NCBI GenBank assembly: GCA_030612725.1
Contig: JAUWNJ010000023.1
Span: 1-47,947 of the forward strand
Reading direction: 5' to 3'
Length of the DNA stretch: 47,947 nucleotides
From: Planctomycetales bacterium
GTDB lineage: Bacteria > Planctomycetota > Phycisphaerae > SM23-33
Positions within the stretch are counted from its first letter, which is position 1, and the number at the start of each line of letters is the position of its first letter. The translations under genes and the position numbers were made by a program. Shown piece by piece: positions 32,181-44,674 of the stretch. Under the pieces are notes generated by a model. It was given only the letters and a program-made list of their open reading frames with translations, was not told the DNA's origin and ran no database searches.

Positions 32181-35100
32181 TTATTTCGGATTCGAGGGTT
32201 TGGGCTTTTTCAGTAGATCGAACAGTGAATCCAGAAAGGGGTCGATCTCTTCAGTCTTATCTTTATCCTTGTCTTTGTCTTTGGGGTCTTTATCTTTCTT
32301 CCGGCGGTCTTTGAGGAGGTCTTCGAGCATCTTACCGGCCTGTTCGGCCAGAAGCGACTTGATCGCACGATCAATCAGCGGGCGGATATCGACTTTCGAG
32401 AAATTCAGCCGGGGTTTAAGACGGCTCCCGACCATGGGGATGTCCACACGAGCGCCGGCCAGAAGCCGGGCATAATCAATGACGGGGCCTCGGACGTTGA
32501 ATTTCTCCAACAAGGCTGCGCTGATCGGAACCGATACAGCCAGGTCCAGCGTATCGTCGAAGCCCACCGAGCCGTAAAATTTCAAGTCGAACCCGCCGGG
32601 GAGAACCAACGTGAAATTGTCGTAGTTTATTCGTCCGTCGCGGATAACAAAATCCACACCACGCACTTGCACGGGCGATTGGTCCCGCGCGTCGGCCATA
32701 CCAAATTTTACAAGTTTCGCGAGGATTCCCTTCGGGCGGACCTTCAGTTTTTGCAGGTCGAGATGTCCCCGTCCGCTACCGATTTGTTTGATCCTGTCGT
32801 TCAGGGGAAGCAGAAGGTCCGTCGTATCCAGGGAGACCTTGCCTTCGACGTCGACAAGTTCGGCGAATATCGGATTGAATCGTGTCAGTAGTTCCTTGTT
32901 TAATTGGGGGGTGATTTTCAGATTCTCCAGCACTCGCACCCGTCCCGGCAGGCGGAAGACGGGATCATCGCCCCGCAGGTCGATCGTTCCGGCCAGGCGT
33001 ACTTTACCGTCGCCGGCGACGACGATTGTTTCGGGTATCCGCACCTGCCCGTCGGCGAGGACCGGCGACAGTTTGGCCTGCTCGACGCCGATACCGAAGA
33101 AATCAGCATGTTCCCACCCAAATGCTGTCTTTGCTTTCACTCCACGGAATGCCGGGCGAACTTCGGGTTTTCGAGCGGGGCCTGTAATGACCACCTGCCC
33201 GCCCGTCTTCCCGGTGAGCGAGACTTTCGCCTTTGTAGCCGGGGCAAATTCGTGCAGCAGGGCGGTCAGGTCTTTCCATGACCCCTCATACGAACCGGAC
33301 AGGTCCAGCATCCAGTCACTGCCGAATCGGTCAATCGTTCCGCCCATCTTCAGCGAAAGCGCCTTGGAGGCTACGTCCATCTTCTCAAGCGTAATCCGTT
33401 TCCTGGCGTGATCCAAAATGGCGACGTGGGCGAAAGTTATATTTTTCTGGCGGAGAGTCTTTTCACCGCTACCAACGCTTATATCTTTAATCTTACCGTT
33501 TCCGGAAAGTCGAACGTCTTTACCGGTATAACTACTTTTGCCTTTCCAGGTCAGAGCGCCGGAAATACGTGGCGGTTTTTCCCATTTCACAAACGGCTGG
33601 GCGGCGGCCAGACATTTCGCAAGATTCGCGGAAATATCGACTTTCCCTTCCGCCCGGAAGTCCTCACTCAGGATCAAGCGGACCTTCTCTGCCAGCAGGG
33701 TCATCGGATCGCTTACCAGTTTGGCAGAGGCGACGTCCATCCGGCGGAAGTCCGGGTCGAGTTTCAGCCCGGACCATTCGAGGTTGATGGGCCTATCGGT
33801 GGGCGATTGCCCGTCAACACGGAGGTTCAGCAGAGTCGCACCGCCGCTGGAGACCAGGTGTTTCCCGCCAATGGGACGGGAAAGGGCGATTTTACCGGTC
33901 AGCGAGCCGGATATTTTCGGCAGGTCGGCGGGTATCCAATTCCTGAAACGGTGTTTCAGCGGCATCAAGTCGGCCTTCTCTATGTCCACGTCGCATTGAA
34001 ATGTCTTCTTATCGAAGTGATAGCGTCCGGACACCGCTAACAACAATTCCTTCGCCAGTTTGATTTCGCCGGATGTGACGACCGCTTCGAGAAGTTTGCG
34101 CTTTTGCAGCAGGAGGTATCCCTTTTGTGTAATACGGAGTTTGTCGAGATGGAGCGTTCGCTCGCCGGCGCGGTACTTAAAGTTCTCGACTTCAACGTCC
34201 GAAAGAAGGTCCACGCGCCCGGCCTTGCGGCGAGCCAGATTTAAGGTTCCTTTGATTAGGCCCTGCGGGAATGCCGAACCGATATCGAAAATTTCCCCCG
34301 GTTTTTCGTGGAACCGTTTCAGATTCAGTTGGTAATGCGTCGTAAAATCCGCGGCGTCCCCTTCGCCTTCGGCGCTGCCGAATCCTGACGTGAATTTGAA
34401 TATGTCGATTTTGAGACCCGCCTCCCGGTCAATGGCGGCATTTAGACTAAGCGAAATGGGTCGGCAGGAGACTTCCGCCTGCCCCTTGCGAGCGGCCCGT
34501 AGTTCGTTCAAGGTTACTCGGCCCTGCACCGACGGTCTGGACCCGCCGCGAATTGAGATATCTTTGGCCACTATCGTTCCCGACGTAATCTCCACGTCGG
34601 GAAGGACCTTCAGCATCGCTGGAACCGCACGGGCCAATTTGGGTAGATTAATATCAGCCTTCGGTACGTCCAGCGAAACGCCCGGCAGCGTTATCGATTC
34701 ACCGCCGAACGCAGCGGCAAGAATATCCTCCCACGACAACCGCAACGGGGCGTCCGAAGGCTTATAGGAAAAAAACGCGTGTAGATTTACCGCCTCGCCG
34801 GTTAGTTTCGCATCCCCGCTGATCTCCTCTTTCGTGGCTTTGAAATTTCCGATAAGGTTCAGGTCAGTCGGACGCAGACTGGACCGCTCCGAACCACCCG
34901 CCCGCAGCCCAAGGACGACCATATCAAAGCCCGCCGTAACCTCGCCGGCAGCGATATTCCCATTTACACTAATTCTCGCTGCTCCGTCAAGACCGCTCCG
35001 GCTGCCGGCGAATTCCGCAAGCCGGGCAAGAGACACCGGCTCGTCCGTTACCAAAGAAAAAGTACCTCCGGCATTATCAAGCCGGAATTCTTCCCCGTCA

Positions 35101-35756
35101 GTCAGGTCCGACAGATTCATCGCGACCGAAATCCGTCCGCCGCCGGAAGGAGCGAAATCAATATTACCTTTAATACGATCCAGCGTATCGAGACTGATCA
35201 AGGCGTTTATTCCCTGTATCTCGTATTTCCGCCCATCCGCACGGATTATCGTAACCATACCGTTGGTAACGGCGATGCCGCCTTTTGGCGCAGATGCGCC
35301 TTTGGTCGGCGAAGGTTCGGTTGGTTCAAAGGCTTTGGACAACGAAGGGACGCCTTCGGCGTTCAGGTACAACATCACGTGAGCCGATGCAATGCTGACG
35401 TGCTCGAAGCGTTCGGCGTTCTTCAACAGGCCCAGAAGTCCGGCGTCCAGTCTGATTTCTTCGACTCGCAGGACCTCCCGCCCGTTAAGGTCAATTGCCC
35501 GCAGGTCGCTTACCCGGCAAGGCCCAAACCAGGAAAGCGAAATCTCACCAATGCGTAAGGTTCCCTTAATCCGGTCATTTATGATCGACACGATCAGATC
35601 ACAGCCTGGGCCTGTTGAGAAGAGGTAAGGCGTCAGCCACACCGTCCCCGCCAGCAGCAGCACAACTGCGAGCAGGAATCGGCGCCGGCGCCGCCGCCGT
35701 TTCTTTTCAGGTACAGCAACCGGATGCCCCACGTTTGATGACGCAAGTTGCTTCAT
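32181..35756 (-). CDS. AsmA-like envelope protein
   Basis: 1191 residues. A basic N-terminus (KKRRRRRRR) precedes one membrane helix at residues ~27-47 (LLAVVLLLAGTVWLTPYLF). The rest is a very long beta-rich repeat region of AsmA/DUF748 type: an N-terminal module with IKGTLRIGEISLSWFGPCRV, many strand repeats of similar length, and a C-terminal AsmA-like module ending GVDFVIRDGRINYDNFTLVL and VGSRLKPRLNFSKVDIRPLID. The last ~40 residues are a Lys/Asp tail (DKDKDKDK) with a final helical stretch. AsmA-like proteins form bridge-like lipid-transport or outer-membrane homeostasis factors anchored in the inner membrane. The length and topology fit a periplasm-spanning protein. The gene next to it encodes an M48 envelope protease, which supports an envelope role. 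Confidence 0.88.
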   Translation of the reverse strand: MKQLASSNVGHPVAVPEKKRRRRRRRFLLAVVLLLAGTVWLTPYLFSTGPGCDLIVSIINDRIKGTLRIGEISLSWFGPCRVSDLRAIDLNGREVLRVEEIRLDAGLLGLLKNAERFEHVSIASAHVMLYLNAEGVPSLSKAFEPTEPSPTKGASAPKGGIAVTNGMVTIIRADGRKYEIQGINALISLDTLDRIKGNIDFAPSGGGRISVAMNLSDLTDGEEFRLDNAGGTFSLVTDEPVSLARLAEFAGSRSGLDGAARISVNGNIAAGEVTAGFDMVVLGLRAGGSERSSLRPTDLNLIGNFKATKEEISGDAKLTGEAVNLHAFFSYKPSDAPLRLSWEDILAAAFGGESITLPGVSLDVPKADINLPKLARAVPAMLKVLPDVEITSGTIVAKDISIRGGSRPSVQGRVTLNELRAARKGQAEVSCRPISLSLNAAIDREAGLKIDIFKFTSGFGSAEGEGDAADFTTHYQLNLKRFHEKPGEIFDIGSAFPQGLIKGTLNLARRKAGRVDLLSDVEVENFKYRAGERTLHLDKLRITQKGYLLLQKRKLLEAVVTSGEIKLAKELLLAVSGRYHFDKKTFQCDVDIEKADLMPLKHRFRNWIPADLPKISGSLTGKIALSRPIGGKHLVSSGGATLLNLRVDGQSPTDRPINLEWSGLKLDPDFRRMDVASAKLVSDPMTLLAEKVRLILSEDFRAEGKVDISANLAKCLAAAQPFVKWEKPPRISGALTWKGKSSYTGKDVRLSGNGKIKDISVGSGEKTLRQKNITFAHVAILDHARKRITLEKMDVASKALSLKMGGTIDRFGSDWMLDLSGSYEGSWKDLTALLHEFAPATKAKVSLTGKTGGQVVITGPARKPEVRPAFRGVKAKTAFGWEHADFFGIGVEQAKLSPVLADGQVRIPETIVVAGDGKVRLAGTIDLRGDDPVFRLPGRVRVLENLKITPQLNKELLTRFNPIFAELVDVEGKVSLDTTDLLLPLNDRIKQIGSGRGHLDLQKLKVRPKGILAKLVKFGMADARDQSPVQVRGVDFVIRDGRINYDNFTLVLPGGFDLKFYGSVGFDDTLDLAVSVPISAALLEKFNVRGPVIDYARLLAGARVDIPMVGSRLKPRLNFSKVDIRPLIDRAIKSLLAEQAGKMLEDLLKDRRKKDKDPKDKDKDKDKTEEIDPFLDSLFDLLKKPKPSNPK

Positions 35757-36058: not shown

Positions 36059-39000
36059 ATGGCCCGACGGGTCATCACAGTTTTGGTCGCCTTCGGTCTG
36101 GCGGGGCTTTTATGCTCTACGCTTTCTCCCGCCCGTCAGGCAGACCTATCAGGCGAAGTTGCACGCGCGGTTTTGCGGCATGAGAAGCTGCTTTCCGACG
36201 CCCGTTTCGAAATTCCCACCGGCCTGTATCATTATTATCTGCGCGACCTGCGAAATCCCGAACGTCTCAAATTCGACTCGCCCATCCCGTACATCGCCGA
36301 AGCCGGAACGTATCACCTCACCGTCAAAGCCGATTCGGCCTCGACGCTCGAAGCCAGGGTGCGACTGCGGGTTTTTGATCCGGTCAAATGCCTGAACCTC
36401 CCGATCTTCGGTACAAAAAATGTAATCTGGAAAGACCTCGCCACCGGCGACAAAGACGCCAAACTGACGATAACGAAAGGCTGGGTGCGATTTAGCGCGA
36501 CCGAGCCGGGGACGTACACGATTACAGGCCGATTCGGCTCGACCGGAGCCATTGGGCTTGACGTTATCCGCACGGTCAGGACGGCAGTGGTTTTCGATTC
36601 GCCCGGTGCGTGGGAAGTTCGAGCGGGGTCGCAGGTCGCGGGGCGATTCGTCGGTACCGCCGAGAAGGGGACCCATGGCCTGCTCGCACTGAAACCGACG
36701 AACCGGTTGTCGATAAATTACACCAGGCCGATGCCGCGTCGCGCCCGCCCGCCGAGATATTCGCTGCACGGCGACGTAGCCTGGAACCTCGGCGCTGCCG
36801 CTCAACAAGTAACTGCTACACTGAAGGCGACCATTGCGTCGGGGGCTTCCGACCGGATCGTGCTGCTGCTGCCGGGGGGTGCAGACCGCGTGAAAATCAC
36901 AGGCCCGGAAGTCCGCAGAGTGCAGGTTTCCGGCGGAAGGGCGGTGGTGAATCTGCGGGGTAAAATCCTCGGCCCGACAATCCTGAATGTTTCCCTCGAG
37001 CGTCCTGCGGGTGCAGGTAACAGGCTTGGGCGGTTCGGCGTAGAAGGCGGGCGATGGACCGGCGGAACGCTTATCGTTACAAACTCTGCCGGTGGAAGCG
37101 AGATTCTACCGGCTTCGATGACGGGACTGCGGCAGATGTCGCTTACCGAAGTTCCCGTCTCGGCCAGGGCGATATTGTCGGCTCCGGTGGTGTTGGCGTA
37201 TGAGATTACTTCGCGCGATTTTTCGGCGGAGGTCGAAGTGCTCCGCCTGGGCGAGTTCGCGCTTCGTGAGTCCATCGCCGACCTTGCGCATTACGAGGTT
37301 TTCCTCGCCGGCGACGGTGCGGTTATCTGCCGGGTGAGATACGAAATCCGCAACAGTAACAAGCAATTCCTCCGCCTTCGCCTCCCGTCCGACGCCCAAG
37401 TGCTGCTCGCCCGCGTAAATGAAAAGTCCTGCCCAATCTCACCACGTACCACGGGCGTCCCGCCCGTGAAAAAAGAAAACACGGGCGAGACGCCCGTGGT
37501 ACATTCCGAATGGCTGTTGCCTTTGGAACGCTCGCGCGCCAGCGTGATGGGGCTGGTGAGTTTCCCGGTGGATGTGGTCTTCATGTGCAGGACGGGAAAA
37601 TTGGCTTACGAAGGCGTCGCGGAAATCCCGCTGCCTGGAATCGACCTGCCAATCGCCTACGCATGGTGCGAGACTTACGTCCCGCCCGGAATGGAAGTAA
37701 AGAAATGGTCCGGCGTGCTGAAAAAGGTCGCCCGTTTCAGCAGCGAGACAGCCACAGCCTCCCTGGACTATGGATGGGGCGAAATGGCGGAGGGGTACTC
37801 CAAAGACGACCGCCCGACAGTCAAACCGAAGCCGACGACTACTCCTCAGCCGACGACCACCCAGCCGATTCCCGGCAAACCATCGACAGTCAGCAGGCTC
37901 GTTGCCGACAGCAGTGCGATTTCGTCGCTGGCGAGGAACTATTATCGCGCGGGCAAGGATTATTACGACAAAAACGAATTTGCCGAGTCTGCGAAGTATC
38001 TGGAGCAGGTTGTCAAACTTGCTCCCGGATCGACCGAAGCCGACAACGCCAGACGCCTGCTTGCCAATCCGCAGATGCCCAAAGCGCGGAAGTTGAAAGG
38101 CAAGGCGGAAAAGGCGGCTGGCAGGGGAATCGAGCGACGATTGGAAGAGCAGAGGCGCCCGATGGAGCGCAGGCAGGAGAAATTACTAGCAGAAGCCCTC
38201 GAGGCTACACGTGCGGGAAAGGAGGCCGAGGCGAAGGCGAAACTCGCTACGGTACACATCCTGCATGAAAAATTGATTGCTCAACACGCGGACGTTTATA
38301 AGCAGCGGGCGCTGATGCAGCAGGCCCAGCCGGGGATGAAAAGACTCCGCAGGCAGAGCGCCTCCAAGATAGCCGAACTCCGTGACGAAGTGAGCGAACT
38401 CAAGAAATCCGGTAAATACGAAAAGGCCCTGAAAGCGGCAAGCGAACTCCGCCGGTACAGCAGCGAACTTACTGTCGTCGATGCCTCCGACAAAGAGGAT
38501 TCCCGCGCCGCCCGGCTGAAGCGAGTCGAACGCGAAAAACTGCAAAAGGAGATAGCCGAACTCGCCGCCTCTGCAAGCAGGGAGAGGCAGAAACGGACCA
38601 AGGGCAAAGGCAAGCGATATCGTATTGTCAAGGCTCCGGTTGCTACAACCCGCCCGCAGCGCCGATCGGCCGGTAGCGGCGGTGGCGGTGGCGCCGGTGC
38701 GATAACCCGCCTTGATCGCACCCGCCGAATCCGTATGCAGCAGCAGGACGCCAGGCAGCGCACCGAGATTGATCGGCTAAGAACCCCGCGTGATGATTGG
38801 GGCAGGTTGCCACACAGGGGTAAGATGACACCGCAGAAGCGCGAGAAAATTGCAGCATTGAAGGCTCGTACCGAGGCCCTTTGCAATGAATATAAATACA
38901 AGCAAGCCATAGAGGTCTGCGACAAAATTCTCAAACTTGCTCCCGATGACGCCTGGGCGAAGAAATCGTACAGATTACTGGACCGCTTCGTGCAAATCCT

Positions 39001-40657
39001 CGACGCAAAGGATGCGCACAGAACCTCTATGCGAGAGGAAATCAAGCAGTTGAATAATATCCGGTGGTCGAAGGTTACGTGGCATGTACTAATGAATTAT
39101 CCGGGAAAATGGCCCGCTATTACCCTCAGGCGCAAACCAATCAGCGCAGGACAGACTACTGAAAGCGAAGCCGATAGCGCCGTTCGCCGACGATTGAACA
39201 CCGTTCTGCCCAAACTGGAACTTCCCGGTGTGGAATTCAAGGACGTTGTGCAGTTCCTCCGCGAATTCGGAAACGTGAGCATCCACGTCAGATGGGCTGC
39301 ACTTGAGATGGTGGGTGTTACCAGGAAAAGCAAAGTCAATGTCCATCTGACTAACGTAACGCTGAACAAAGCCATTCGGGTAATTCTGGACGATGTCGGC
39401 GGGGGCAATCCTCTCGGCTTCGTGCTGGATGAGGGCGTCATCACGATATCAACCATGGACGACTTGTCCAGACGGACCGTAACTCGCGTGTACGACATCC
39501 GCGATCTGGTCGTTCGTATGCCCAACTTCAAAGGGCCGAATATCAACCTTCGCCGGTCGGGTAATAATAACAACAATGCCGGCGGATGGGGCTGGGGTGA
39601 TGACGACGATGACGATGACGATGACGAGAAAACACGAGATGAGATGATTGAGGATGTTCTGGACTTGATTCGCTCTACCATCGATCCGGACACTTGGCGT
39701 AAGACAGGCGGAAAGCACGGCTCCATCCGTGAAGTGGGCGGACAGATTATCATTACGCAAACTGCCGAGAACCAGCGGGCCCTGACGGACCTTCTGAGCC
39801 AACTTCGTCAGGCCCGTGGCCCGCAGGTCGAAGAAGGTAAGAAGATCGCCCAGCAAAAGGCCTCTGAACCACTTACCGGCGCGAGGCTGCGGGATACGGA
39901 TGGCTATTTGCGGCAGTGGCATGGTGGGAGACAGGTCCAAATCAAAGACAGGGCACTCGATGAATTTATCCGGCGGAACTACGACTGGGCGCTGCAAGGC
40001 CGAACGCGGGGAGACCTGAAGACGACCATTACGGTCCCCGATGGCGGGACGCTCATGCTGGGGGGGCAACGGGTCAGCAGCCGCGAACTTATCTCGAAAC
40101 TCCGATACAATCTTGACCAGAAGGTTGCGGTTCACAGCCTCAATGTCAACGCCGATGCCCGCGCCACTGCTGCGCTTGGCGTGCGGTTCAGGCGTGGCAG
40201 CAATAACGTCAACTGGGCTGTGATTAACGAGGCCCAGTTTCGCGCACTGGTGGAACTGGAGGCCGAGTCGTCCCGCCGCAGCGGGTCGGTGGCGGAAACC
40301 AACGCCCGCCTCCAGGAAACCATCGTCGGAACCGACGCTCGCCTGTCCAACGAAATGTTCGCTAACCTCTCCTACGCCGGCGACAAGGGCAACGTGCTGG
40401 ATATAAGCGGCAACGCTATAAACCTCGCGCACGAGGGTTATCTGCTGCTATACGCGGGCGGACACCTGACAGTCGTCCAGGCCGGCGCTATGCAGCACTG
40501 GCGCGAAACGCCGGCGAGCGTCGGGTTCGTCGAGGTTCCGCAGAATATCGAAGTGCCCCGCGTGGGGCGACTTTTCAGATTTGAACGGACGCTGCTGAAA
40601 CCGTCCGACAAAATGGTCATTCGTGCAGAATATCAACAGAAAGGAGCATCAAGATGA
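36059..40657 (+). CDS. Very large secreted multidomain protein with TPR, coiled coil and STN-like domain
   Basis: 1532 residues with a signal peptide (about residues 1-25, ending near LSPARQA). Residues ~30-580 are beta-rich modules; part of them (RYEIRNSNKQFLRLRLP to about residue 525) aligns with the next gene's product. A Pro/Thr linker (PTTTPQPTTTQP) sits near 590-610, a TPR near 620-670, a long charged coiled coil at ~680-870, and a second TPR near 936-975. An STN-like (secretin/TonB short N-terminal) domain lies at about 1049-1136 (LPGVEFKDVVQFLREFG, then FVLDEGVITIST), and a second related alpha/beta piece at about 1198-1252 (GGQIIITQTAENQRALTDLL), separated by N5 and D9 runs. No secretin pore domain follows. 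The last ~30 residues match the end of the next protein. Function unknown; the gene overlaps the next by 4 bases. Confidence 0.85.
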   Translation: MARRVITVLVAFGLAGLLCSTLSPARQADLSGEVARAVLRHEKLLSDARFEIPTGLYHYYLRDLRNPERLKFDSPIPYIAEAGTYHLTVKADSASTLEARVRLRVFDPVKCLNLPIFGTKNVIWKDLATGDKDAKLTITKGWVRFSATEPGTYTITGRFGSTGAIGLDVIRTVRTAVVFDSPGAWEVRAGSQVAGRFVGTAEKGTHGLLALKPTNRLSINYTRPMPRRARPPRYSLHGDVAWNLGAAAQQVTATLKATIASGASDRIVLLLPGGADRVKITGPEVRRVQVSGGRAVVNLRGKILGPTILNVSLERPAGAGNRLGRFGVEGGRWTGGTLIVTNSAGGSEILPASMTGLRQMSLTEVPVSARAILSAPVVLAYEITSRDFSAEVEVLRLGEFALRESIADLAHYEVFLAGDGAVICRVRYEIRNSNKQFLRLRLPSDAQVLLARVNEKSCPISPRTTGVPPVKKENTGETPVVHSEWLLPLERSRASVMGLVSFPVDVVFMCRTGKLAYEGVAEIPLPGIDLPIAYAWCETYVPPGMEVKKWSGVLKKVARFSSETATASLDYGWGEMAEGYSKDDRPTVKPKPTTTPQPTTTQPIPGKPSTVSRLVADSSAISSLARNYYRAGKDYYDKNEFAESAKYLEQVVKLAPGSTEADNARRLLANPQMPKARKLKGKAEKAAGRGIERRLEEQRRPMERRQEKLLAEALEATRAGKEAEAKAKLATVHILHEKLIAQHADVYKQRALMQQAQPGMKRLRRQSASKIAELRDEVSELKKSGKYEKALKAASELRRYSSELTVVDASDKEDSRAARLKRVEREKLQKEIAELAASASRERQKRTKGKGKRYRIVKAPVATTRPQRRSAGSGGGGGAGAITRLDRTRRIRMQQQDARQRTEIDRLRTPRDDWGRLPHRGKMTPQKREKIAALKARTEALCNEYKYKQAIEVCDKILKLAPDDAWAKKSYRLLDRFVQILDAKDAHRTSMREEIKQLNNIRWSKVTWHVLMNYPGKWPAITLRRKPISAGQTTESEADSAVRRRLNTVLPKLELPGVEFKDVVQFLREFGNVSIHVRWAALEMVGVTRKSKVNVHLTNVTLNKAIRVILDDVGGGNPLGFVLDEGVITISTMDDLSRRTVTRVYDIRDLVVRMPNFKGPNINLRRSGNNNNNAGGWGWGDDDDDDDDDEKTRDEMIEDVLDLIRSTIDPDTWRKTGGKHGSIREVGGQIIITQTAENQRALTDLLSQLRQARGPQVEEGKKIAQQKASEPLTGARLRDTDGYLRQWHGGRQVQIKDRALDEFIRRNYDWALQGRTRGDLKTTITVPDGGTLMLGGQRVSSRELISKLRYNLDQKVAVHSLNVNADARATAALGVRFRRGSNNVNWAVINEAQFRALVELEAESSRRSGSVAETNARLQETIVGTDARLSNEMFANLSYAGDKGNVLDISGNAINLAHEGYLLLYAGGHLTVVQAGAMQHWRETPASVGFVEVPQNIEVPRVGRLFRFERTLLKPSDKMVIRAEYQQKGASR
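37446..37502 (+). repeat. Palindromic double-hairpin repeat inserted in frame within a coding region
   Basis: Two 23-base arms, 37446-37468 and 37480-37502, are reverse complements at 22 of 23 positions around an A-rich 11-base spacer. Each arm is itself a near-palindrome (CACGGGCG/CGCCCGTG). It encodes TTGVPPV, KKEN, TGETPVV within the 1532-residue protein. Peptides like these are familiar from planctomycete and verrucomicrobial proteins, where such mobile palindromes occur in many genes and spacers. It is short, has no transposase and keeps the frame. Confidence 0.9.
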
Positions 40658-42699
40658 AACGAGCAAAGGTAATGGTAATGGCTGTGTGTGTATTGGGGCT
40701 GACGGCTTCGTTGTTCGCTGCCAAACCGGACAAAGCAAAAGCAGGCGACGGTGAGAGCAAGGTAATCCTCAGCTGGGCCGAATTCGTCAAGATTACCGGA
40801 TACGGCAAGCCGGGGGTTGTGAAAGACCCAAATGTCCTGACGGTTCCCTGGAAGGATGTGCAGGAACTTCTCGGCGTGGAACTGAAGGACCTGGATGGTA
40901 TGGACAAAACGATGGTCAACCTGCCATGGAAGGAATTTAAAGTCCTTCTGGAATGGTCCGTGCGCAGACAAAAGCCCAAGGAGAAGCCCGAAATCCCCCC
41001 GCCGGCGGATTATATTATTACCTCCAGCCAATACGTCGGGACGTTGTCGGCCGACGGCGCGGAATTCACCCGCAATGTCAAACTCGACATCCTGCGCAAG
41101 AAAGGCTGGAAGCGGATACCGATCCTTCCCGCCGGCGTAGCCGTCAAAAAAGTAACACTCCCTCTCGGCGTGTACCTTCACAGCACCGGCAGCGTTTATG
41201 AATTGCTGACGGAGAAATCCGGGCGTATGGACATCGCACTGGAATTTTCCGTAGCCGTCCGTAAAAGCACCGGCGCAAGCAGCGTCAGTTTCGTCAGCAC
41301 GCCGCATTGTTCGAGCGTTCTGGATTTGACGGTCGCCGGTAAGGACGTTGACGTGAAGGTCGCCGGTGCGCAATCGCTGGTAACGCTGGTCGCCGACGGA
41401 AAGACTACCGTCGCCGCCGCTATCGCTTCGGGCGTGGGCGTCAACATCACCTGGCAGCGCGCCCTGCCCAAAGTCAAAGCCGCTCCGACAAAACTCTACG
41501 CCGAAACACGGACGCTGGTGGCGGTGGCTGAAGGAATCCTCATCTGCACCGAGTCGGTGGATTTCAACATTCTTCACACTGCAGTGAAGGAACTGAAACT
41601 GACCGTTCCGGAAGGCGTCAGCGTTCTGGAAGTCGTAGGCCGGAATGTGTATGACTGGCGCGTGGACAAGGGGCAACTGGTGGTCCTTCCTCGCGGCGAG
41701 GTCATTGGGCCTTATAACCTGCGGATTTCCTATGAGATGCAGTCGGCCGGCGCGGTCGAGATTCCGGTCCTTCGCGCCGACGGCGTCGAGCGCGAGAAAG
41801 GTTTCGTGGGCGTAATCGCCCTTGCCAACGTTGAAATCAAAGCCGGTAAAGTCTCCGGCGCAACCGTTATCGACGTCAAGCGTCTCCCGTCGTCGATATC
41901 GGCGATGACGAATCAGCCGATCCTGCTCGGTTTCCGCTACGTCAGCGACAAATTCAGCATTCCGCTGACGGTCAAGAAGCACGGCGAGGTAAGCGTGCTG
42001 GTAACTATCGTCGATAGCGCGATGTACACGATAATGCAGTTGCCCGACGGGCGGCGAATGACCAGGGCGATCTACACTGTCCGAAACAATCGCAACCAGT
42101 TCCTGCGGGTGAAGATGCCGGCAGGGGCCGATATATGGTCCGCGTCCGTCGGTGGTAAGATGGTCGCACCGGCAGTGGACGAGAAGAAAAACGTGCTGAT
42201 TCCGCTAATCCGCAGCGCCGTCGGCGCGAGGGAACTGGCGAGTTTCCCGGTGGAACTTGTCTATGTGGAAACGCCGGAAAAAACGGCTCCGACCAGCGGG
42301 AAGATGCACGTGGAATTACCGAAACTGAACACTCCGGCGATGCACGTGATGGCGAATTATTACGCGCCGGCCGAGGGTAAGTACGGTCGGCCCGGCGGGC
42401 TTTTCGCCGCACCGAAAGGCGGTTTTACAGGTACGCTCCGCCCGGTTGAGGAATTCACCAGCATGTCGGCCGACCGGGGCGGAAAGGTCGTCGTGCGTGA
42501 TGCGGCAAGACGGGCGCAGAGAATGCAGAAACAGTTTAACGTGAAGATGACCACCGAAGCACAGGCAGCAGGCGTTACGCCCATTCGCGTCCGCCTGCCG
42601 ATCAACGGTAAAATCTTCAAACTCGAAAAAATCCTGGCGTTGCCCGGAGATGACCTGTACTTCGACGTCGTGTACAGCGACTGGAAGGCATCCGAGTAA
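40654..42699 (+). CDS. Secreted beta-rich protein, partner of the preceding large protein
   Basis: 681 residues. The start overlaps the preceding stop (ATGA) and has AAAGGAG upstream, indicating tight co-expression. Signal peptide at about 1-22 (AVCVLGLTASLFA). Residues ~25-110 include repeated helical VPWKD/LPWKE elements. The remainder consists of beta-sandwich-like modules. The stretch MYTIMQLPDGRRMTRAIYTV, then RNNRNQFLRVKMP and FPVELVYVE, is paralogous to a segment of the large protein; its last residues (LPINGKIFKLEKILALPGDD, LYFDVVY) match the other C-terminus (VPRVGRLFRFERTLLKPSDK, MVIRAEY). No enzymatic motif was found. The pair probably forms a surface or periplasmic complex. A strong terminator follows. 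Confidence 0.85.
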   Translation: MKRAKVMVMAVCVLGLTASLFAAKPDKAKAGDGESKVILSWAEFVKITGYGKPGVVKDPNVLTVPWKDVQELLGVELKDLDGMDKTMVNLPWKEFKVLLEWSVRRQKPKEKPEIPPPADYIITSSQYVGTLSADGAEFTRNVKLDILRKKGWKRIPILPAGVAVKKVTLPLGVYLHSTGSVYELLTEKSGRMDIALEFSVAVRKSTGASSVSFVSTPHCSSVLDLTVAGKDVDVKVAGAQSLVTLVADGKTTVAAAIASGVGVNITWQRALPKVKAAPTKLYAETRTLVAVAEGILICTESVDFNILHTAVKELKLTVPEGVSVLEVVGRNVYDWRVDKGQLVVLPRGEVIGPYNLRISYEMQSAGAVEIPVLRADGVEREKGFVGVIALANVEIKAGKVSGATVIDVKRLPSSISAMTNQPILLGFRYVSDKFSIPLTVKKHGEVSVLVTIVDSAMYTIMQLPDGRRMTRAIYTVRNNRNQFLRVKMPAGADIWSASVGGKMVAPAVDEKKNVLIPLIRSAVGARELASFPVELVYVETPEKTAPTSGKMHVELPKLNTPAMHVMANYYAPAEGKYGRPGGLFAAPKGGFTGTLRPVEEFTSMSADRGGKVVVRDAARRAQRMQKQFNVKMTTEAQAAGVTPIRVRLPINGKIFKLEKILALPGDDLYFDVVYSDWKASE

Positions 42700-42842: not shown

Positions 42843-44510
42843 TTACGGCGTATGGGTGTCGTCCGGGGAGCGGAGTTTGTCCGGGTTTGTTGAGAGTGTT
42901 ACGGTGAAGGTTGTTCCTTCCCCAGCCGGTGAGGTTACATCAATTTTCCCGCCATGTTCGTCGATAACTTTTTTCGCTACCGCCAGACCCAGCCCCGTTC
43001 CTTTCTGCCCCTTGGTCGAGTGGAAGATGTCGAAAATCCGGTCGATCTGATCAGGCTCGATTCCGACGCCGTTGTCGGCGACGCTGACGATAATCTGTTG
43101 GTTGGCGGGGTCGGATCGGCTTGAGATGGTAATGATTCCGGTATTATCGCTTATGGCGTCGAGGGCGTTCGTTACAAGGTTCAGCAGCGCCTGGTGAAAA
43201 CCGGTTGGGTCTGCCGGTATTTCCGGCAGGTCGTTGATGTCGGTTATTATTGCCACGCCTCGCTCGTCGGCATAAGGTGTCATCAGATCGATACATTCGT
43301 TGATGATATGATTGACATTGACCAATTCCCGAAGCGGCTGTTTAGACCTTGAAAACGCCAGCATGTTGAGGATGACGGCATTGATTCGGTCCAGACTTCG
43401 ACGGACGATAGGCCAGGCGTCAGCGGCCTTTTTGGCGTTACCTTCGGTAATGGCTTTTTCCACAATATCAGTCCCGCCGAGAAGCCCCTGAAGGATGTTT
43501 TTGATATGGTGGCTGAGGAAGGCGACGGTTTCTCCAATGGCGGCCAGTCGTTCGCTTTTCACAGCGGCTTCGTATAATCTGACGTTTTCCGCTGCAAGAC
43601 CGGTCTGGTAACCGATGGCGGTCAATAGGCGTAACTGCTCCGTTGAGTAAATGTGGTCGGAAACGCCGCAATCAATGTGGATGACGCCGAGAATTCTGTC
43701 CAGACCTTTTATCGGTGCGCAAATGGCGGAACGAATCCCGTATTCAAGGACGCTCTTTCCGGGTCCGAAACGCTTGTCACGCATGGCATTGGAACTCAAT
43801 ACACCGACCTGCTTGGTAAGGACCTCGTTGATAATTGTCCGGCTTATGGGGATGGTGGAAATATCAGGAATAGCGGATTTCACCGGTGATTCACTGGATG
43901 CGTCGGGTGTCGGTTCGTTGCGGTACCTGGCGGCTTTGGGGATAAACCGGCCTTCTTCATCGACCATGAGGATAAATGCGTGGTCGGCGGGGACAACCTT
44001 GAAGATTACATTTATGGTTCGCTGCAACAGCGTGTCCAGGTCGAAGGCGGATGTCAGTTCTGTGGCGAGGTTGTAAAGGATGCGGAGGTTTTCGATTGCT
44101 TCTGCGCCGGCTTCGGGAGTGGGGATAATTATCGAGTCGTCATTGGCGGGGACAGTCGCTACTATTGCGGCATCGGTCAGGTGTTTGTCGGACCCGTTCA
44201 TCCTCATCGGCGTCGCCCGTGAAGCCGAACCGCCGAACACCAGAAGAGTCGTACCGCAACGAATCTGGTCGCCAATCTGTACGGGGGTCGCTTTTTTTAT
44301 TTGCGAACCGTTGAGGAACGTTCCGTTTGCCGAACCGGCATCCTCGATTGTCCATCTTTCATCGTGCATACTCAGGCGTGCATGTTCGCGCGAAACGGTA
44401 CCGTCTGTCATAGGGAGAGACTCGCTCTTGCGGCCGATAACGGCTTCGTCGTCAATCTGGAAGACTCTGCCCTTATCAGGACCCCGGATTACTTCAACGG
44501 TAACACCCAT
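42843..44510 (-). CDS. Sensor histidine kinase with FHA and GAF domains
   Basis: 555 residues. The ATG at 44510 (MGVTVEVIRGPDKG) is chosen; a TTG at 44576 would add 22 residues not needed by the FHA fold. An FHA domain (about residues 5-95) has the phosphothreonine-site signature GRKSESLP, SREHARL and SANGTFLNG. A GAF domain follows at about 140-310, then a dimerisation helix with SHHIKN (phospho-acceptor H334; the next residue is His instead of the usual Glu/Asp), the N box NLVTNALDAI, G1 DNGVGI and G2 GTGLGLAVAK. There are no membrane helices, so it is cytoplasmic. No response regulator is encoded beside it, so its partner lies elsewhere. An FHA domain suggests that it also senses Ser/Thr phosphorylation. 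Confidence 0.93.
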   Translation of the reverse strand: MGVTVEVIRGPDKGRVFQIDDEAVIGRKSESLPMTDGTVSREHARLSMHDERWTIEDAGSANGTFLNGSQIKKATPVQIGDQIRCGTTLLVFGGSASRATPMRMNGSDKHLTDAAIVATVPANDDSIIIPTPEAGAEAIENLRILYNLATELTSAFDLDTLLQRTINVIFKVVPADHAFILMVDEEGRFIPKAARYRNEPTPDASSESPVKSAIPDISTIPISRTIINEVLTKQVGVLSSNAMRDKRFGPGKSVLEYGIRSAICAPIKGLDRILGVIHIDCGVSDHIYSTEQLRLLTAIGYQTGLAAENVRLYEAAVKSERLAAIGETVAFLSHHIKNILQGLLGGTDIVEKAITEGNAKKAADAWPIVRRSLDRINAVILNMLAFSRSKQPLRELVNVNHIINECIDLMTPYADERGVAIITDINDLPEIPADPTGFHQALLNLVTNALDAISDNTGIITISSRSDPANQQIIVSVADNGVGIEPDQIDRIFDIFHSTKGQKGTGLGLAVAKKVIDEHGGKIDVTSPAGEGTTFTVTLSTNPDKLRSPDDTHTP

Positions 44511-44674
44511 CACGTTCACACCTGAGCAGGGATGCAGGACATGCTCGAAATCCGATAAACCAGACTTCCATCGCAACTCTATCCGACAAAAGCATTCAAC
44601 GCACGTCTGCTGACACCAAAAAGATATGATCTATGGATGAAGTGCCGGCCCACTGACCCGGTGCGTCTATTGTA

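Follow-up and report, generated by a model that had tools for sequence, protein, structure and literature searches.

What kind of system is encoded by two overlapping genes whose large, apparently secreted products resemble each other, when one of them also carries a secretin-type domain and no pore? This question is raised by genes A and B in positions 1-47,947 of contig JAUWNJ010000023.1 (assembly GCA_030612725.1) from a Planctomycetales bacterium (Phycisphaerae; SM23-33), a 47,947-nucleotide stretch referred to here as the window. Both open reading frames were found where a first-pass annotation had placed them (Table 1). Their 4-base overlap is ATGA, in which the start codon of B (ATG, 40654) runs into the stop codon of A (TGA, 40655-40657). 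A Shine-Dalgarno-like stretch lies 5' of each start (AGGGAG for A, AAAGGAGC for B). The two signal peptides, like the coiled coil of A, were assessed by eye, and both N-termini are signal-peptide-like, which supports the earlier description of A and B as an exported pair. We conclude that the two genes encode sister proteins, co-translated and exported, which belong to a so far nameless family. That the pair is conserved and that A has captured parts of a secretin we regard as nearly certain.

The relationship between the two proteins extends well beyond one short motif. BLASTP matched A to B at E=6e-25, and profile alignment (hhalign) gave a match of 499 columns that pairs A ~46-552 with B ~85-600 (prob 100, E=3.2e-43; E=1.6e-22 in the single-sequence version). 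The three beta-domains of B were each recovered separately against A by profile (E=9e-10, 1e-12, and 4e-26), while profile comparison of the three with one another gave no sequence similarity beyond their overlap. The first-pass annotation had named two shared segments, an NQFLRVKMP module and a C-terminal G-F-E module. The former is real and lies within the ~500-residue block, and the latter was confirmed separately as a 35-residue tail (A 1492-1526 vs B 641-675; hhalign prob 97, E=4e-10). As judged from these alignments, A and B are paralogues across ~500 residues. The N-terminal region of B, modelled as three repeats of strand plus helix, is not present in A.

Are A and B also inherited together? 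When GTDB genomes were searched with the alignment of B, 22 B loci were found, mostly in Phycisphaerae or unclassified Planctomycetota metagenome-assembled genomes (MAGs); Verrucomicrobia and Lentisphaerales contributed one MAG each. A lay immediately 5' of B in 19 of the 19 loci whose contig reaches upstream, often with the 4-base overlap kept; at the other three, the contig starts at B or no more than ~150 bp away from it. Of 60 relatives, 17 had the C-terminal module of A (C-module). A strong B accompanied it in 16 of these, and in the seventeenth (G004) the contig ends before B would be visible. In G002, B is present and the contig begins inside the gene. Phylum-wide, the C-module occurred in 2 of 294 genomes and weaker B-like modules in 81, most of the latter being tandem copies in gene pairs of ~1100 + ~2500 aa. 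Judged from the 19 testable loci, A and B are strictly co-inherited. No Pfam family matches the B homologues or the core of the pair, and we found no description of the pair in the open-access literature. The system thus appears to be undescribed, as the first-pass annotation had held, although its building blocks are known (VIT/M1N/Ost1-like sandwiches, secretin N-domains, and TPR).

The origin of the secretin-like segment could be traced within the same genome. A 894-1291 is 61% identical in protein sequence to the genome's own PilQ-type secretin (L051:6720-9773; 1017 aa; PF00263, E=1e-23), which has a complete PF00263 core and is encoded near a PilM gene. At the DNA level, the identity is 77% over ~990 bp (window 38834-39804). 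The STN-like domain that had been noticed in A is weak in Pfam (E=0.07) and certain through its homology to the true secretin. It is not an orphan, as had been proposed, but a fragment of the own secretin; an N1/Secretin_N domain (1198-1253) and a remnant of the secretin core (1320-1340) had been missed. The remnant shares 67% protein identity with the secretin (E=3e-4), and DNA alignment gave an isolated 35-bp match (86%, E=4e-5), which codes for the last part of the secretin core, TVPDGGTLMLGGQ. Since insert and remnant are separated by ~166 residues in the secretin vs 28 in A, the barrel-coding part has been lost from A, leaving VPDGGTLMLGGQ as a scar. Consistent with the reported absence of a pore or barrel behind the STN domain, a Pfam search gave no PF00263 match in A. 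Measured as a secretin, A has the periplasmic N0 and N1 and lacks the barrel-forming core. To judge from these identities, the N0-N1 segment of A is a copy from the genome's own PilQ-type secretin gene with the barrel removed. For the insert, then, a known secretion component has been matched with confidence; for the core of the pair, none has.

The insert is closer to its own secretin than to its counterparts. In a small tree of the insert segment, with one row partial, A grouped with the secretins of its genus (support 0.94), apart from the A of two congeners. Likewise, A 1011-1110 shares 78-82% identity with the own secretin vs 51-66% with the congener's A. Together, the tree placement and these identities suggest that gene conversion following an initial capture is the probable, and best, explanation for this closeness.

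Is the insert needed? In a sister species (L056) whose B is 95% identical, N0 has been deleted in frame and a Pro/Thr linker stands in its place, while N1, the C-module, and the tail are still there. As N0 is missing in this species, it cannot be essential, and we rejected the STN domain as an ancestral, essential element. Other lineages fill the same slot differently: Secretin_N in L059 (E=8e-37) and L061 (E=6e-6), STN in L063 (E=2.5e-7), three STN units in G031, a VWA domain in L072 (E=5e-8), and nothing recognisable in some other A homologues. The VWA-bearing homologue (L072:5073-9896, plus strand) holds this domain where the A of the window holds N0-N1. The inserts of A in G031 and G034 are nearest to secretins of their own genus, and the A of G004 retains a longer secretin core stub (FLDDIQVDFLVRATQA); therefore, secretin parts seem, from these sequence affinities, to have been captured into A more than once. 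The earlier idea of the STN domain as the defining feature of the system is not supported: the domain comes from the own PilQ gene, is missing in the sister species, and in other lineages gives way to different inserts or to none. The STN domain is an exchangeable, recently captured insert, and the secretin-like segment of A is dispensable. In G004, a secreted 832-aa protein directly behind A (L116:2-2497, minus strand) has four STN-Secretin_N units and no other recognisable part.

What remains constant is a core of beta-module, one TPR, C-module, and tail. Several TPRs had been announced for A; one is well supported, and a second (residues 932-968) is weak in Pfam. The C-module was modelled with high confidence (predicted local distance difference test, pLDDT, ~90), and in Foldseek no PDB entry matched the model of the A C-terminus significantly. 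Its first strand aligned weakly with the secretin (hhalign prob 10-36%, E=0.003-0.0004), such that a secretin origin of this strand is weakly supported by the alignment. Sequence-profile searches of the PDB with B and with the A C-terminus gave no matches. The B model, built from a 23-sequence alignment, is all-beta (mean pLDDT 76; predicted template modelling score, pTM, 0.37). In a Foldseek search of the PDB, Ost1/ribophorin I took all of the first eight places (E down to 1e-8, prob 1.00); M1 aminopeptidase N-domains and the VIT domain of ITIH1 came next (E ~1e-3). The Ost1 matches cover ~420 columns at 10-12% identity, and their TM-scores are low (0.2-0.3) because the domain arrangement in the B model is uncertain. 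The resemblance of B to Ost1, the M1 N-domain, and VIT is thus a statement about predicted fold.

Comparison with known systems gave partial likenesses. A copies the TPR-N0-N1 of a PilQ/GspD-type secretin (PF00263 + PF03958 + PF07660) and keeps a core remnant, but it lacks the core and barrel, and its flanking modules are unrelated save for the weak match at the start of the C-module. Ost1, an oligosaccharyltransferase subunit that the predicted fold of B resembles, has two similar beta luminal domains (PMC7226087). Unlike Ost1, B stands in a bacterial envelope setting and has no predicted transmembrane helix in its model, and none of 23 B homologues matched PF04597 (ribophorin I) at E<=1. VIT-VWA proteins (ITIH heavy chains and their bacterial relatives) are approached by the ITIH1 match of B (E=8e-4) and by the VWA domain in the A of L072. 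However, VWA is exceptional, seen only in L072 and not in the pair of the window, and no B homologue matched the VIT family in Pfam. For M1 aminopeptidases, only the fold of the N-terminal beta-domain resembles B; their catalytic thermolysin-like domain had no Pfam match in A or B. The planctomycete sets of ~1100 + ~2500 aa share a B-like module (B ~270-440) and two adjacent secreted genes, but their modules are repeated in tandem and the A C-module is absent. Among relatives, L078, L079, L080, and L081 encode such giant secreted proteins (~1100 and ~2200-2550 aa), usually adjacent and with several B-like beta-modules.

Table 1. Features of the A-B locus, with window coordinates
Feature	Position	Strand	Description
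Gene A	36059..40657	+	1532 aa; signal-peptide-like N-terminus, three-domain beta-module, TPR, secretin-derived insert, C-module, tail
A beta-module, three domains	36194..37714	+	A ~46-552; homologous to B ~85-600; contains NKQFLRLRLP
TPR of A	37931..38029	+	Residues 625-657; Pfam TPR_2, E=4.5e-6; same position in most A homologues
Secretin-derived insert	38738..39931	+	A 894-1291: TPR, N0 (STN), N1 (Secretin_N); matches residues 349-776 of secretin L051
STN (N0) of A	39173..39472	+	A ~1039-1138; exactly the part lost in sister species L056
N1/Secretin_N of A	39650..39817	+	Residues 1198-1253; PF03958, E=0.02-0.12
Secretin core remnant	40016..40078	+	A 1320-1340 (TVPDGGTLMLGGQR); matches secretin 942-962
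C-module of A	40091..40498	+	A ~1345-1480; 24-54% conserved in A homologues outside the genus
A C-terminal G-F-E tail	40532..40636	+	A 1492-1526; hhalign match to B tail
Gene B	40654..42699	+	681 aa; ATGA overlap with A; homologues 41-95% identical
B N-terminal region	40759..40965	+	B 36-104; three [LVI]xW.[ED][FV]..[LI] repeats; from alignment and model
B beta-module, three domains	40999..42465	+	B 116-604; predicted fold like Ost1/ribophorin I, M1 aminopeptidase N-domain, VIT
B C-terminal G-F-E tail	42574..42678	+	B 641-675; hhalign match to A tail

How might such a pair work? We tentatively favour, as something close to an even call, an envelope scaffold that A and B form as a pair, with a docking insert that can be swapped. 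For the assembly and function that we infer, the homologous beta-modules of A and B would pair as a hetero-oligomer, forming a periplasmic or outer-membrane-facing scaffold. Coupled translation, and perhaps the common tail, would bring the beta-modules together, and the TPR and C-module of A would supply further contacts. The strict adjacent co-inheritance of these paralogues makes joint assembly plausible, and we consider a physical A-B complex somewhat probable. The slot between the TPR region and the C-module of A would function as a docking adaptor whose content can be exchanged. With N0-N1 in this slot, the A of this lineage would be able to bind the pilus machine, either at the PilQ ring or through an inner-membrane partner that grips the N0 of PilQ. 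The N0 of PilQ binds PilP in type IV pili (PMC3441751), and the N0 of GspD binds GspC in type II secretion (PMC3169554). Since secretin N0 domains grip inner-membrane partners in this way, the captured N0-N1 could provide the scaffold with a link to the pilus machine; by this analogy, a docking role at the pilus apparatus is conceivable but doubtful.

Several results weigh against the docking scaffold. Export of A and B is a by-eye judgement, and the pTM of the B model leaves its domain arrangement uncertain. The sister species without N0 has an otherwise intact A-B pair, so that the pilus-docking step is optional at best, and the insert could be a passive passenger. A PilQ-type secretin is present in 58 of 60 relatives vs ~17 for the A-B pair, no pil or gsp genes recur beside A-B loci, and the PilM-linked secretin sits on another contig; an obligate pilus link is therefore not supported. 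The main alternative takes up the passenger idea: the insert would be functionless, A and B would be surface or matrix beta-sandwich proteins (VIT/ITIH-like glycan or matrix binding), and the slot would be a tolerant linker gathering fragments by recombination with abundant STN/Secretin_N genes. We consider this credible, if on balance improbable. The in-frame loss of N0, slot contents that are unrelated from lineage to lineage, the many STN/Secretin_N donor genes per genome, the VWA domain (the usual VIT partner) in one homologue, and the ITIH1 VIT-like fold of B would all fit. However, each capture keeps the reading frame and domain boundaries, secretin-related segments occupy the slot in at least six lineages, above expectation for random fragments, and the C-module is possibly secretin-derived itself (E=4e-4).

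A might instead be an accessory secretin subunit, in a mixed ring with PilQ or a separate poreless periplasmic ring, with B as its outer partner. A has the TPR-N0-N1 of PilQ, at 71% identity over the segment, missing only the barrel and last segment; its C-module opens with an N1-like end and strand (a weak match), and the four-fold STN protein of G004 lies directly 3' of A. Against this, N0-N1 is not universal among A proteins and only a minority of PilQ-bearing genomes have A-B, making the proposal unlikely. The remnant VPDGGTLMLGGQ and the deleted barrel could also suggest a degraded secretin, a pseudogene or assembly chimera lying 5' of B by chance. This is barely credible: the frame is open for 1532 codons, the secretin-derived part is the insert only, and A homologues occur at 19 loci in independent assemblies. 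The N-module and C-module are conserved on both sides of the insert, and on this ground we rejected a pseudogene or chimera. Beyond the favoured scaffold with its swappable insert, PVC bacteria (planctomycetes, verrucomicrobia, and their relatives) might repeatedly have moved the ring domains of their pilus secretin into the A-B scaffold as a second, poreless collar docking on a pilus or secretion machine. The C-module and the ribophorin-I-like module of B would then be new machine parts, the former either a new fold or a secretin core turned soluble domain. We regard this as a long shot.

No conserved third gene was identified in the surroundings of A-B. Divergent genes lie 5' of A, including one whose 1191-aa product is AsmA/DUF748-like and matches GspN weakly (32181-35756, minus strand). 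A histidine kinase gene lies 3' of B on the opposite strand (42843-44576). These neighbours do not recur at A-B loci outside the genus, with the exception of distantly related kinases at two of them. Elsewhere in the window, a large exopolysaccharide locus (1926-27630) encodes SLBB/Poly_export and Wzz-BY-kinase-like proteins, an O-antigen ligase with TPR, glycosyltransferases, and a flippase.

Other secretin-domain proteins were encountered in the same genome. A 3288-aa secretin (G000:C50:29624-39487; L123:625-10488, plus strand) carries a complete core preceded by 30 tandem Secretin_N (N1) domains, and its homologues across the class have open frames of ~2400-5100 aa. Should every N1 form a ring, the protein would make a tube of exceptional length in the periplasm; a literature search for such a multi-N1 secretin found nothing. 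Two poreless STN/Secretin_N proteins are also encoded, one of 344 aa with a lipobox-like LCAFVSTGC (L052:5551-6585, plus strand) and one of 417 aa with two STN-like units (L053:5500-6753, minus strand). Relatives of the latter (~370-420 aa) are found in most related genomes.

Together, A and B represent a strictly paired and apparently undescribed family that occurs in three PVC phyla and whose predicted fold, ribophorin-I/VIT-like, has no Pfam match. They also provide a clear case of copied machine parts, in which the N0-N1 ring domains of a pilus secretin were moved to another envelope protein and the pore was removed. This transfer was apparently repeated, probably including gene conversion inside one genus. 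The case makes the portability of secretin N-domains as docking modules testable.

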